From positions 124,001 to 188,000 of the forward strand of contig JACQYI010000022.1 in NCBI GenBank assembly GCA_016208305.1: 64,000 bases of DNA, written 5' to 3'. The notes beneath the pieces are model-generated. The model was given only the letters and a program-made list of their open reading frames with translations, ran no database searches and had not been told where the DNA came from. Below, piece by piece: positions 20,561 through 27,555 of the stretch; positions within the stretch are counted from its first letter, which is position 1; each line of letters starts with the position of its first letter. This stretch comes from Oscillatoriophycideae cyanobacterium NC_groundwater_1537_Pr4_S-0.65um_50_18. Lineage in GTDB: Bacteria > Cyanobacteriota > Cyanobacteriia > Elainellales > Elainellaceae. A program made the position numbers and the translations under genes.

Positions 20561-22882
20561 TTAGGCCGATGAACTGCGCTGTTCAGGTTGTTGTAGAGAC
20601 TTTGACAGGCGATCGATCTCTCTCTCCGTCAGTTTGTATAGCTCGTATACATGATGATCAATGGCTGCTTCTAAACGCGCTATCTCTGCTCGGATAGCGT
20701 CTGGGTTAGGCGGAAGGAGATCGAGCTGATCTTGCAGCAAGAGGCGATCGCTCACCCAGTCTATGATCTGCTCATAGCTCTGGCGATCGGCTGCGTTAGT
20801 GAAATCAGGTATCCACAGAGGCAACTGCCGTAGCTGAGGTGTGCCAACTCTCAGATAGCCTCCCTGGAGACAGTTTCCGGCAAAACAGCGCTGAAAATAC
20901 AGGCTCAACAGACGGCTGTTGAGCAAGCCTAAGAGATAGCGCAAATCTAGGAGCGGACTCGCCCGAATCACAGAAGTTGATTTGCCCGCCAACACTGAAC
21001 CGATCGCATCTAGCCCACATTCCAGCACTTGAGAGAGACCCGCCACAATAATTTTGGGTTGCTGAGCCTGCTGTTTGCGCTGAGGAGACAAATGCACTCT
21101 GCGGGAGGCAGCCAGAATCGGATGCTGATAGACTTGCCCCAAGTAGCGCAGCGGCTTTTTGCCCCACAAAAAGCAGTAGCGATCGATCGTGCCGCTGTTA
21201 ACGAGCTTCAAATCTTCAGGAGCGATCGTGGCGCTGTCTTGTATCCAAGGCTGAAGGGCGTATGCCTCAGCCACGGTGGCGGCTCCGGTCACTTGAACCC
21301 TGTCTCCGAGGTCGCCAAGGGCTGGCAGGCTTTTCTGAATGCGATCGATCCAGGCCAGCGGCTCTCCGGTCACGCCCATTTGCCAGGGCTGCGAGGTGCA
21401 ATTGAGCAAGAGCCGACCTGTTGCGCCTACTTGGTCTAAGCTTTGCATCCGCTCATAGGCGATCGATTTTGGTGGTGTCACGGCACTCGGCGCATCGCGT
21501 TTCTGAGCCACATACACCAAGGGATAGACTGCCGCCCGAAAGGCAGCCACGCCAGAATAGTCGCGAATGGACAAGAGATCCGCTTGCTGCATGAGGAGCG
21601 ATCGCGCCCCGGCTGCGTAATTTGCCGAAGCCAGCTTGTTAGGCACAACTAAGCTTGTTAATCCGCCCGGTTTGCAAAGTGCCAAGGCTTTTTCGATAAA
21701 CACACAGAAGAGATCCCAGTTGCCAGCAGCCGTCTGGTATCGGGCTGTACAATAGCGTCGCCAGTCGGGCAGATGGGTGGTCATGCCTTCTGAGTCCAGG
21801 TAGGGCGGATTGCCAATCACCAAATCAAACCCACCCGATCGCAAAATTTCTGGAAAAGCCTGATGCCAGTCGAGCGGGCGATCGCGTTCTGCATTCAACC
21901 CCTTGCCATAGGGTTTCGAGGCAGCAGAATCTAGCGCATCCAGATCGGGCGCAATTAAGGCATTGCCGCACTGAATGTTTTGGCTGAGATCGGGGACAGG
22001 AGTGCGATCGGACGAACTTCCTCGCAGCAGCAGATATAGCCCTAGCTTCGTCATCTCGACGGCCTGTAGATCAAGATCAACGCCAAAGATGTGGGTGAGC
22101 AAAAGCCGCTCTCGCTCTGGGCGCGTCAGATACCACTGCCCGTCTTCGCCTCGCTCAATTGGAGAAAGGCGATCGGCACTTGAGCGATCGCGTTCCCAGA
22201 AATCGGCCTCCAGACTGTACATTCGCAAATGCCAATCCAGCAGAAATTGGTAGGCAGAAATCAAAAAAGCGCCACATCCGCAGCTCGGATCAAGCAAGGT
22301 CACAGGCGAGGGAGAAGGCACAGATAGGAGCTTCCCTAGCGTCATCTGCAACATATAGCTGACGATCGCCTCAGGCGTATAGTAAGCGCCTGCCGATTTG
22401 CGGCTGTGCATCGGCTTCGATTTAGGAGAATTGGGGAGGGCTACAGCACGGTTTCCCAACACCTCTTCGGCTAAAAGCGTTTCGTGAACCTGTCCCAAAA
22501 CTGCGCTCGAAAGACTCTGGCTCGTTGCACAAGCCGCTAAACTGTCAATCATCCGGCTCAGCAGAGGATCGGGCAGGTGAATCAGATCCAGCTCAGAGAG
22601 TTGACCCCAAGGCATTTGCGTCATTTGCCAAAGCTGCTTGAGCCAACCCAGCACAGCATCTTGCGGTAGTCTCCTTAGTTGACCTGCCTCCCACAGTCCA
22701 TGCTGCTCCCAGAGGCAAAGTGCCAAAACGCGCAAAATGAGCGATCGCGCCAAACTGCTGTTTTGCACTGCGCCAGGTTGCGCTTCAGAGGAGTTTTCAG
22801 AGGCGACACTGGATGCAGTATTGAGCTGAGAAACGATCGCCCGGTGCCAAGACAGCGCCAGTTTTGGCAGGTCAGCTTTCAT
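20561..22882 (-). CDS. Eco57I-like adenine-specific DNA methyltransferase
   Basis: A 773-residue class I SAM-dependent methylase. Residues 1-160 form an N-terminal helical region. AGAYYTPEAIVSYML begins near 164. SAM motif I is LLDPSCGCGAFL (about 196-207). Catalytic motif IV is NPPY (358-361, in FDLVIGNPPYLD), which marks N6-adenine (or N4-cytosine) methylation. The C-terminal 250 residues (from about 520) resemble a TaqI/Eco57I-type target-recognition region. No PD-(D/E)xK or HNH motif is visible in the chain, so it is either an orphan methylase or works with a separate nuclease. Its ATG overlaps the stop of the SRAP gene (ATGA), which implies translational coupling. Confidence 0.85.
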   Translation of the reverse strand: MKADLPKLALSWHRAIVSQLNTASSVASENSSEAQPGAVQNSSLARSLILRVLALCLWEQHGLWEAGQLRRLPQDAVLGWLKQLWQMTQMPWGQLSELDLIHLPDPLLSRMIDSLAACATSQSLSSAVLGQVHETLLAEEVLGNRAVALPNSPKSKPMHSRKSAGAYYTPEAIVSYMLQMTLGKLLSVPSPSPVTLLDPSCGCGAFLISAYQFLLDWHLRMYSLEADFWERDRSSADRLSPIERGEDGQWYLTRPERERLLLTHIFGVDLDLQAVEMTKLGLYLLLRGSSSDRTPVPDLSQNIQCGNALIAPDLDALDSAASKPYGKGLNAERDRPLDWHQAFPEILRSGGFDLVIGNPPYLDSEGMTTHLPDWRRYCTARYQTAAGNWDLFCVFIEKALALCKPGGLTSLVVPNKLASANYAAGARSLLMQQADLLSIRDYSGVAAFRAAVYPLVYVAQKRDAPSAVTPPKSIAYERMQSLDQVGATGRLLLNCTSQPWQMGVTGEPLAWIDRIQKSLPALGDLGDRVQVTGAATVAEAYALQPWIQDSATIAPEDLKLVNSGTIDRYCFLWGKKPLRYLGQVYQHPILAASRRVHLSPQRKQQAQQPKIIVAGLSQVLECGLDAIGSVLAGKSTSVIRASPLLDLRYLLGLLNSRLLSLYFQRCFAGNCLQGGYLRVGTPQLRQLPLWIPDFTNAADRQSYEQIIDWVSDRLLLQDQLDLLPPNPDAIRAEIARLEAAIDHHVYELYKLTEREIDRLSKSLQQPEQRSSSA

Positions 22883-24896: not shown

Positions 24897-25085
24897 ATTT
24901 CGTTTAACAATGAAATTCCAAGCTCATCATCGGACTTTGCCTGAAGCGGCGCATTTGGCTACAGGCAGAGTTTTAAGTCATCTTTTGGGGGAGAAAGTGA
25001 CAGGTGATGGCGTGTTGGTCATGGGTGATTAACCCTACCTTCGTGTGGTTAAAGAGCCAAACAGAATCGGTTGGGACCACTCCAT

Positions 25086-25334
25086 ATGGATGCTCGTCGT
25101 TGGATGCTAGAGCAAGTTTTGGCAGTTCAATCAGAGGTGGATACAGCGGCGCGATCGCTCAGTAAGCCAGAAATTAGCCTGATTAACGGTGAAGAATTGA
25201 CACGGATTGAGGAGTTAATTGCAGCAAATACCTATCCTGAAAAGTGGGATGGGACAGAACACCGAGGTGATGAGTGGCTTCCTGATATATTGCCTGATGG
25301 GAGCATTCAACCACTGCTATTCGATCAGATTTAA
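25086..25334 (+). CDS. Hypothetical small protein
   Basis: An 82-residue frame from ATG 25086 (MDARRWMLEQVLAVQSEVD), mildly acidic and mostly helical, ending PDGSIQPLLFDQI. A TTG five codons earlier is an alternative. No family is recognised. It lies in the AT-richer accessory stretch beside other small genes. Coding status is plausible from amino-acid composition but not proven. Confidence 0.35.
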   Translation: MDARRWMLEQVLAVQSEVDTAARSLSKPEISLINGEELTRIEELIAANTYPEKWDGTEHRGDEWLPDILPDGSIQPLLFDQI

Positions 25335-25384: not shown

Positions 25385-25630
25385 CTAATCGATCTGAATT
25401 GCTCGACTAACAACACTTATAACTTCATTGGAATTTCTGAAAGGGACTGGACGACTCCATTCACTTCCGGAAATGATGTTGTACCTGTGGAGTAGCCCAA
25501 CCATGCGATCAACGGCTCTACGAGTGCCCGTTAAAATCATCTTCACGGGTTCCTCACAGGGAGAAGATTGGCTCGTATCACCTTCAGGCGGTTGACCAGC
25601 ATCACTTGAAGAATTTCTGTCAATGAACAT
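25385..25630 (-). CDS. Small conserved protein of unknown function
   Basis: An 81-residue protein. The first 30 residues are Ser/Glu-rich and variable; the rest (MILTGTRRAVDRMVGLLH, then GSEWSRPVPF and a NEVISVVSRAI end) matches a short motif I know as recurring in multi-copy small proteins of filamentous cyanobacteria, with a form near MILTGTRRAVDRMIHLLH. Function unknown. It is divergent from the XRE gene and shares an upstream region with candidate operators. Confidence 0.6.
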   Translation of the reverse strand: MFIDRNSSSDAGQPPEGDTSQSSPCEEPVKMILTGTRRAVDRMVGLLHRYNIISGSEWSRPVPFRNSNEVISVVSRAIQID

Positions 25631-25784: not shown

Positions 25785-26033
25785 ATGGGAAAAGCAGGGC
25801 GAGTTCTAAAAACAGTAATGCAGAGTTATGGCATTAGTCAGGGAAAACTAGCCGCAGCTATGGGAATTGGCGCGTCTAATGTTTACCGTTGGGCGAACGA
25901 AATCCGTGATCCAAGCTCAGAAACCGTTATGAGTATTTTGGCGGCACTGGAAAACCTCAACCCGGATGCAGCTGCAGAATTTAGAAAGCTCTATATGAGT
26001 CCTGATTCGGAAACGGGTATGGAATCAGATTAG
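25785..26033 (+). CDS. XRE-family helix-turn-helix regulator
   Basis: An 82-residue protein that is essentially one HTH domain: LKTVMQSYGISQGKLAAAMG, then IGASNVYRWANEIRDPSSET and VMSILAALENL. The recognition helix is around ASNVYRWANE. There is no other domain, as in phage, toxin-antitoxin or restriction control proteins. Its last four bases overlap the last four of the HNH gene on the opposite strand, so the two genes converge end to end. It probably binds the palindrome upstream of itself; control of the neighbouring nuclease genes is inference. Confidence 0.8.
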   Translation: MGKAGRVLKTVMQSYGISQGKLAAAMGIGASNVYRWANEIRDPSSETVMSILAALENLNPDAAAEFRKLYMSPDSETGMESD

Positions 26034-26983
26034 GCAATTTTCCAGAATGAGCGATGCCACTGAAGAGAATCAATTCTTGGGTTGTAAATTTCTTGATTGG
26101 GTAGAAGAATACTTTCACCGTTAAAATCTTGCAGCGATCGCATATCTGTTGGAGTTTCTTCATGAAGGCGATCGTGAGGAATGATGATTCTATAATCGTC
26201 ACCAATACCAAACCAACCACGATCAAATGCCCAGTGATGATTTTTACAAAGAGCGATTCCATTATCAAAGCGATCATCATGAAACTCTGAAAATGGTTTG
26301 ATGTGCGCTCCATCTACAATATTCTGGCTATCTCGGCTAACAATCTTCAAACGGCAAAGGGTACAATGTTGTAGATACAGGGAGACTACATTACGACGAA
26401 ATGCAGCGTTTCTTACGAATGTCTTATCCTGATCCTTAATGTCTTCTGTTGTGTAGACTGCACCACCTTTTTCAAATAATCTCAACTGAATATTATCTAG
26501 CTCATCAACTTGATAAAGTTTTTCTAGCTGTTGTGTCTTAGCTGGAAACCATGTTGAAACTAAAGTTTCGGCTAAATGAAATCTTGAACTCACATCCTGT
26601 AAATACTCAAATAATTCATCATCTACATACGCATATTTAACTGTATTGCGGAGTGCTGCTAAACCTTTAATTTTAGTTCTACTTGCAATCGTTGCCTCAA
26701 AACCAGGATTAGGCATAAGATGCCAGAATTTATCGCCTGTGAGATGGAAGAAAGGCAAAGAAATGTCTGATCGATGATCGGTAGTTACCAAGTTTGACCA
26801 GTATTTGAGGAAGGTAGCAATTAGTTCAGGAGTTAAATAAATTTGATTATGCTGTATTCTGTCTTTCTCAAATTGTTCAATCACAGAGAGTAATAGAGTT
26901 GGTTTGTGTGGTGCAACTCCGTGAGCGCGATCGACTCCTAGCTTTGTAAATTTCTTAGCGTAGTAGCTTAGGTCTTTCTTCAT
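26030..26983 (-). CDS. HNH endonuclease with N-terminal domain resembling the ScoMcrA DNA sulfur-binding domain
   Basis: A 317-residue protein. Residues 10-145: VDRAHGVAPHKPTLLLSVIE, then TFLKYWSNL, LPFFHLTGDKFWHLM, and KYAYVDDELFEYLQD. The APHKP-LLL ... PF-x-L ... FW-L order resembles the sulfur-binding domain of phosphorothioate-dependent restriction enzymes (ScoMcrA type); this is my reading of motifs, not a search result. Residues 205-255 are an HNH nuclease: CTLC (207-210), DGAHIKP (His227), NGIALCKNHH (Asn241, Cys246, His250). It likely cuts modified DNA. The gene overlaps its upstream paralogue by ATGA. Confidence 0.78.
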   Translation of the reverse strand: MKKDLSYYAKKFTKLGVDRAHGVAPHKPTLLLSVIEQFEKDRIQHNQIYLTPELIATFLKYWSNLVTTDHRSDISLPFFHLTGDKFWHLMPNPGFEATIASRTKIKGLAALRNTVKYAYVDDELFEYLQDVSSRFHLAETLVSTWFPAKTQQLEKLYQVDELDNIQLRLFEKGGAVYTTEDIKDQDKTFVRNAAFRRNVVSLYLQHCTLCRLKIVSRDSQNIVDGAHIKPFSEFHDDRFDNGIALCKNHHWAFDRGWFGIGDDYRIIIPHDRLHEETPTDMRSLQDFNGESILLPNQEIYNPRIDSLQWHRSFWKIA

Positions 26984-27555
26984 CGCTCGTTATAAAGCTC
27001 CCAATAACCATCTCTCAGATACTCTGGCAGATCTCGAAATTCATCAGTTTGCGAAATCTCTTCGACTAACTCAACCTTACCCGGAAACCATCGAGCAACT
27101 AACACAGTAACTAAACTACTTCTTAGAATTGGGTCTTGTAGAAATTCAAATAGTTCTTCATCTAAGTGAGCATATTTAATTGCTTCTTTGACTTCTGAAA
27201 GAGTTTTTAACTTCTCTTTGGAGGAGATTAGTTTTACATAACCTGGATTTGCCCATAGATGCCAAAACTTACCACTTCTCATGTGAAAGAAGGGTCTGGA
27301 AATATCAGGATTGTGATTGAAAGAGCCTAGATAACTCCAGTACTTAAGAAATGTTTGAATCAGTTCACGGAATAAATAAATTTTGTTCTCTGTAATGATT
27401 TCCCTTCTAATCTGTTCGATTACAGACAGCAACAAAATAGGTTTGTGAGGAGCTATACCATGAGCGCGATCGACCCTCAATCGCTCAAATTTCTTAACGT
27501 AGTGAACGAGCGCTTCGAAATCTTGAATATTCCTCTTGTCTGAGTTGCTAGGCAT
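26980..27555 (-). CDS. Nuclease-less paralogue of the HNH protein's N-terminal domain
   Basis: A 191-residue protein from ATG 27555 (a TTG two codons earlier is weaker). It aligns by eye with residues 10-150 of the following gene: VDRAHGIAPHKPILLLSVIE, TFLKYWSYL, DISRPFFHM, KFWHLWANPGY, KYAHLDEELFEFLQD, and LVARWFPGK. It stops before the HNH region, ending DGYWELYNER, so it can bind but not cut. The four-base overlap with the HNH gene argues for a fixed ratio and perhaps a heteromeric complex. DNA here is visibly AT-richer than the flanks. Confidence 0.72.
   Translation of the reverse strand: MPSNSDKRNIQDFEALVHYVKKFERLRVDRAHGIAPHKPILLLSVIEQIRREIITENKIYLFRELIQTFLKYWSYLGSFNHNPDISRPFFHMRSGKFWHLWANPGYVKLISSKEKLKTLSEVKEAIKYAHLDEELFEFLQDPILRSSLVTVLVARWFPGKVELVEEISQTDEFRDLPEYLRDGYWELYNER

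Follow-up and report, generated by a model that had tools for sequence, protein, structure and literature searches.

Two overlapping genes, here called A and B, lie in the window (the whole 64,000-nucleotide stretch of cyanobacterial DNA analyzed) and would together form a module for reading phosphorothioate (PT) linkages in DNA. Our preferred reading, which we hold to be an even call, is that B is a PT-reading nuclease and that A, a second reader with no nuclease, tunes it. The module would have arisen inside cyanobacterial Dnd/Pbe PT-defense loci and, in the window, would have outlived the genes that write the modification. The evidence is drawn from sequence comparison and covers the domain identity and pocket residues of the two proteins, the overlap of their genes, the conservation of A, the locus membership of the pair in relatives, and the loss of the writers.

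Domains and Sulfur Pocket of the Two Proteins

Gene A (26980-27555, minus strand) encodes a stand-alone, nuclease-free sulfur-binding domain (SBD) of 191 residues, and gene B (26030-26983, minus strand) a protein of 317 residues that joins such a domain to an HNH nuclease. The genes overlap in an ATGA at 26980-26983 (minus strand), made up of the TGA of A (26982-26980) and the ATG of B (26983-26981). Gene A starts, as its close relatives do, at the ATG (27555) rather than at the in-frame TTG of 27561. The two proteins are 53% identical across 161 residues (E 1e-60, pairwise comparison), and A stops right after the domain they have in common. In B, Pfam detects HNH_2 (PF13391, E 2.9e-11), the HNH motif CxxC...DGAHIKPF...NG..LCKNHH is complete, and no SRA domain was found by Pfam; the SBD runs to about residue 165, and the HNH part starts at about residue 190. 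The initial annotation had proposed two overlapping genes with a common domain and an HNH nuclease in the second only; its gene calls, strand, and ATGA overlap all hold up, and so does the division of domains.

The annotation had further likened the common domain to the sulfur-binding domain of ScoMcrA-type enzymes. The family is borne out by matches to a solved domain, and the nearest relative turns out to be SBDHga1 (PDB 8h0l), with E values of 1.8e-21 (B) and 1.2e-20 (A) by phmmer and of 2e-28 (B) and 1e-23 (A) by profile, whereas ScoMcrA itself matches the B profile with an E value of merely 0.24. We take SBDHga1 to be the sulfur-binding domain from Hahella ganghwensis; a short loop of it touches the DNA backbone rather than the bases, and its sequence specificity is low. 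The NCBIfam model NF045808, "phosphorothioated DNA-binding restriction endonuclease," also matches B (1.2e-31, 109.9 bits) and A (6.2e-8, 32.1 bits); the curated cut-off of the model, 180 bits, lies above both. AlphaFold2 models of A and B, built on shallow alignments, have a pLDDT of about 40. Judged by these sequence matches, A and B are sulfur-binding domain proteins.

The sulfur pocket of ScoMcrA consists of H116, R117, Y164, P165, and A168, with R117 replaced by Lys in most homologues (PMC6224610). Assigned by motif order, the equivalent residues are His37, Lys38, Arg87, Pro88, and His91 in A and His26, Lys27, Leu76, Pro77, and His80 in B. The pocket His, Lys, and Pro of A (H37/K38/P88) do not vary among the 10 intact A proteins. 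At the lid, every A has Arg or Lys; the 33 B and solo proteins in the comparison all have Leu, Gln, or Tyr there, and SBDHga1 has Leu. Given the invariant pocket residues and the basic lid, A likely retains PT recognition with an altered lid, and the Arg/Lys could make sulfur recognition weaker or different.

Gene A Across Cyanobacteria

Gene A is a conserved, nuclease-free gene in its own right, as far as its distribution, tree, and selection tell. It occurs in 12 cyanobacterial genomes, and in 8 of these B follows directly downstream at a spacing of -4 to +6 nt: the window genome, Drouetiella hepatica (G003, L024), FACHB-502 (G008, L023), Elainella saxicola (G032, L025), PCC 7375, Prado105, G012, and G047. 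The initial annotation had called for a survey of homologues for the tandem arrangement, and among cyanobacteria these 8 loci show it; their constant order and spacing rule out a chance pairing of A and B. Among the other four, Vasconcelosia has both genes at contig ends (its A is truncated by one), G011 has an intact A and a B split by an insertion, G028 has a frameshifted A and is missing B, and Leptolyngbya sp. Heron Island J has an intact A and no B found in its genome. In the last (L026:4134-5640), the position where B would be expected after A is taken by a distant SBD-HNH-like gene, convergent to A and 23% identical to B.

The A proteins form a single clade with support of 100/100 in a tree of 44 domains, and their reading frame is intact in 10 of the 12 genomes, the exceptions being the G028 frameshift and the Vasconcelosia contig end. 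Omega is 0.08-0.21 among the closest A pairs, which indicates purifying selection. That the first gene might be a disrupted remnant in relatives had been named at the outset as one of two findings that would refute the proposed module; monophyly, frame retention, and low omega rule it out.

The B proteins from A loci group together, with two solo B proteins among them. As a separate clade they were rejected on account of these two, although a single clade stays compatible with the data (p-AU 0.107, not rejected). Solo B genes without A are found in G019, G041, G055, and G058, so A is dispensable. The tail of the PCC 7375 A can still be aligned to the linker of B. The simplest history that the sequences suggest is that an SBD-HNH gene was duplicated once, that one copy shed its HNH part, and that A was later lost in places. 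A phage or prophage origin was also considered and dismissed, given that A has no match in phage records, B has weak matches only, and no related viral contigs were found. Plasmid matches are annotated as HNH endonuclease or as hypothetical, and the three plasmid neighborhoods opened contain no annotated dnd gene and no second SBD-HNH gene beside the match.

Dnd/Pbe Loci of the Relatives

In relatives, the pair sits inside larger loci, of which that of G047 is the fullest; the others keep parts of the same order. It runs from PbeA (PLD + SF2 helicase; PADLOC 2e-242, TIGR04095) and PbeC (PADLOC 2e-242) through dnd_assoc_4 (TIGR04062, treated here as a PbeD/DndE-like subunit), A, B, a convergent HTH gene, and a small ORF, c4, to a dndC remnant (a fragment only), DndD, DndE, a DndC-like PAPS-reductase protein of about 400 residues, and a dnd-associated methyltransferase (TIGR04096). 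In relatives A lies between dnd_assoc_4 and B.

A survey of 386 cyanobacterial genomes, 40 with the SBD family and 93 with DndC above cut-off, places these loci in context. DndC is present in 35 of the 40 SBD-positive genomes and in 58 of the 346 SBD-negative ones (Fisher 2e-19, shared ancestry ignored). Where a genome has both, the SBD gene lies within 6 kb of dndC in 33 of 35 cases, and among the 33 genomes with both an SBD gene and dnd_assoc_4 the two are adjacent in 23. On this sequence evidence the B family belongs to Dnd/Pbe phosphorothioation loci. Beside intact SBD-HNH genes, dndC has repeatedly been broken, by an internal stop or down to a C-terminal fragment (G003/L066, G047/L067, G008/L068, G041/L073).

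The DndC-like protein of about 400 residues, a possible second sulfurtransferase, scores about 135 bits to TIGR03183, which is below cut-off. It was found in 3 of the 386 genomes, two of them A-carrying, occurs, whole or fragmented, in most of the other A genomes, and is also present in G026, a genome with no SBD gene found.

Such tight linkage of B relatives to intact dndC and dnd_assoc_4 would suit a self/non-self effector of Dnd/Pbe, in which host PT restrains or positions B so that unmodified phage DNA is attacked; A would then be an accessory and the window copy an idle survivor. DndI (PMC11662687), for which such behavior is reported, and SspE (PMC9646914) offer precedents. We nevertheless think this quite unlikely, because an intact B occurs, beside A or alone, in several genomes that lack DndC (G000, G012, G032, PCC 7375, and Prado105, plus the solo genes of G019 and G055), and a nuclease held by PT alone should do harm there.

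Only one of the 12 A-carrying genomes, G008, has a fully intact DndC, located elsewhere in its genome, and the DndC of G003 contains a stop codon. Compared with the other SBD genomes (35/40), the difference is marked (p = 8e-7, shared ancestry ignored), yet it loses significance when the four nearest solo genomes serve as the comparison. A as a protection in dndC hosts was set aside, as A genomes mostly lack an intact dndC, with the caveat that this contrast is not significant among near relatives.

The same counts bear on whether A is a shield or antagonist that occupies PT sites, or B itself, and stops B from cutting, which would let a PT-sensing nuclease coexist with the cell's own PT. The B family stands mostly beside intact dndC, so that some restraint would be needed, and A, the gene of which overlaps that of B, has retained the PT pocket and acquired a basic residue at the lid, and is free of a nuclease. 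On the other hand, most B-family genes beside intact dndC do without A, a fully intact DndC is missing from 11 of the 12 genomes with A, and A is intact in G011 and Heron Island J, where B is split or was not found. We consider the shield conceivable, albeit rather unlikely.

What Is Left in the Window

The window pair is best described, from comparison with these loci, as a preserved piece of a larger Dnd/Pbe locus whose other genes have been lost. Next to B lies a small convergent HTH gene (HTH_3; 25785-26033, plus strand), which overlaps the end of B by 4 nt and is kept beside B in most loci. It is followed by small ORF c4 (25385-25630, minus strand; 81 aa), the conserved downstream neighbor of B and near-constant companion of B and the HTH gene across loci; the window copy has no Pfam match, and its G047 relative has no match in Pfam, NCBIfam, or PADLOC. 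A DndC-like fossil comes next (25056-25334, plus strand; match over 25056-25331), comprising the C-terminal 90 residues or so of the PAPS-reductase protein of about 400 residues and 68-89% identical to the intact copies of relatives (L067:5302-6507, L070:9228-10427, L028:7221-8477). About 3 kb from the HTH gene, 20561-22882 (minus strand) encodes a putative DNA N6-adenine methyltransferase of 773 residues, Eco57I-like and with an NPPY motif, as judged by eye.

DndC, DndE, and dnd_assoc_4 were not detected in the window genome, and their absence is likely rather than certain, as the assembly is 98.5% complete and in 85 contigs. Within the window no similarity to PbeA or PbeC was found. A DndCDE-PbeABCD locus is thus not seen in this genome, whereas relatives such as G047 largely have one. 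The initial annotation was right that no dnd genes are near the pair in the window; its step from there to incoming modified DNA as the target holds for the window only, with the pair being internal to Dnd/Pbe loci in relatives and a DndC-like fossil remaining in the window.

Could the window locus be a decaying leftover, with A and B still open but their use lost? The dnd and pbe genes are all gone and a neighbor has been reduced to a fossil, and elsewhere decay has set in, with A frameshifted and B missing in G028 and B interrupted in G011. Nevertheless, both frames and the HNH motif are intact, and omega is about 0.2 even between the window and G012; rough three-taxon estimates for the window branch, based on few changes, are 0.15 (A) and 0.27 (B). 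We therefore regard decay as improbable.

The lack of detected writers here, together with the survival of B without writers, would also agree with the heterodimer suggested in the initial annotation. A and B would then make up a stand-alone Type IV enzyme, its two readers engaging both strands and its single HNH cutting or nicking PT-DNA that comes in, and the linkage to Dnd would be historical only. Coupling and spacing of the genes are conserved, and SBD-HNH enzymes form dimers (PMC7461809). Set against this, the isolated SBD of ScoMcrA is monomeric in crystals, the model of the ScoMcrA authors suggests that simultaneous binding of two ScoMcrA to the two strands of a DNA might not be possible (PMC6224610), and the closeness of SBD genes to dndC in DndC-positive relatives speaks for more than history. 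This makes the heterodimer an unlikely arrangement in our estimation.

How the Pair May Work

In the preferred reading of a nuclease tuned by a second reader, the sulfur-binding domain of B would locate PT linkages and its HNH domain would cut or nick the DNA. A, a paralogue of the B reader domain without the nuclease, is probably made together with B via translational coupling. It may also bind PT DNA and would alter when or where B acts, either by serving as a further reader subunit or by competing for the same sites. In the window, any residual activity would be Type IV-like, directed against incoming PT-modified DNA, since no dnd genes were detected in the window genome.

Two settings of B frame this reading. 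Where writers are missing, B has been kept, which speaks against a nuclease with activity on unmodified DNA and PT as its sole restraint; beside intact dndC its relatives have been kept, which speaks against an unrestrained PT-dependent cutter. Some control step would be needed. A is a candidate for the control factor where it is present; solo B loci manage without it. Critically speaking, it counts against the preferred reading that most B relatives coexist with an intact dndC, as a freely active PT-dependent cutter should not.

A bolder form, which we think doubtful, would make A a dedicated free-standing PT reader and a new subunit of PT defense that controls a PT-sensing nuclease inside the modification locus of its host, either through the shielding of self sites or as the reader of a second mark from the DndC-like protein of about 400 residues. 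This protein accompanies nearly all A-carrying genomes and is otherwise found in few of the cyanobacteria searched.

The loci thus turn the puzzle of a PT-reading nuclease coexisting with the PT modification of its own cell into one that can be tested. A itself, at 166-197 residues, is a natural candidate for a stand-alone PT reader and might be of use in the detection of PT in DNA.

Comparison With Known Systems

Among solved structures, SBDHga1 is the closest relative of A and B, over about 137 residues and with the same pocket His, Lys, Pro, and His. A differs from it in its basic lid and in being a separate protein beside an SBD-HNH gene.

With the PT-dependent Type IV endonucleases EcoWI, SprMcrA, and Ksp11411I (NF045808), B shares the SBD-HNH build, while scoring below the curated cut-off of that family. 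No SBD-only partner is mentioned for these enzymes in the available text on them, whereas the window pair has one. ScoMcrA (SBD-SRA-HNH) and the wHTH+SAD+HNH proteins (PMC10853773) likewise combine a sulfur reader with an HNH nuclease and are Dnd-linked, the wHTH+SAD+HNH genes being reported in Dnd loci. In contrast, no SRA or SAD domain was found in B, and the SBD-only gene is extra; the available text of PMC10853773 makes no mention of an SBD-HNH gene accompanied by a separate SBD gene.

At the level of the locus, the DndCDEA-PbeABCD system (PMC6459918) and the CxC ABC-ATPase systems (PMC10853773) come closest. PbeABCD halts virus propagation without degradation of viral DNA, and deletion of dndCDEA causes no apparent growth defect (PMC6459918). 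As re-read in PMC10853773, PbeA is an HKD nuclease-helicase, PbeC a CxC ABC-ATPase, and PbeD a DndE cognate. The loci of the relatives similarly hold PbeA, PbeC, dnd_assoc_4, DndC, DndD, and DndE in varying completeness. They differ in the additional SBD-HNH and SBD-only genes, and the window differs in being without all Dnd/Pbe genes.

So far, work on SBD-HNH enzymes has dealt with them as Type IV cutters that stand alone and keep away from dnd genes, and of the predicted PT-dependent enzymes surveyed, less than 3.6% may be near dnd (PMC7461809). The cyanobacterial branch to which B belongs lies, by contrast, mostly inside dnd loci, and one of its lineages has added a conserved nuclease-free reader.
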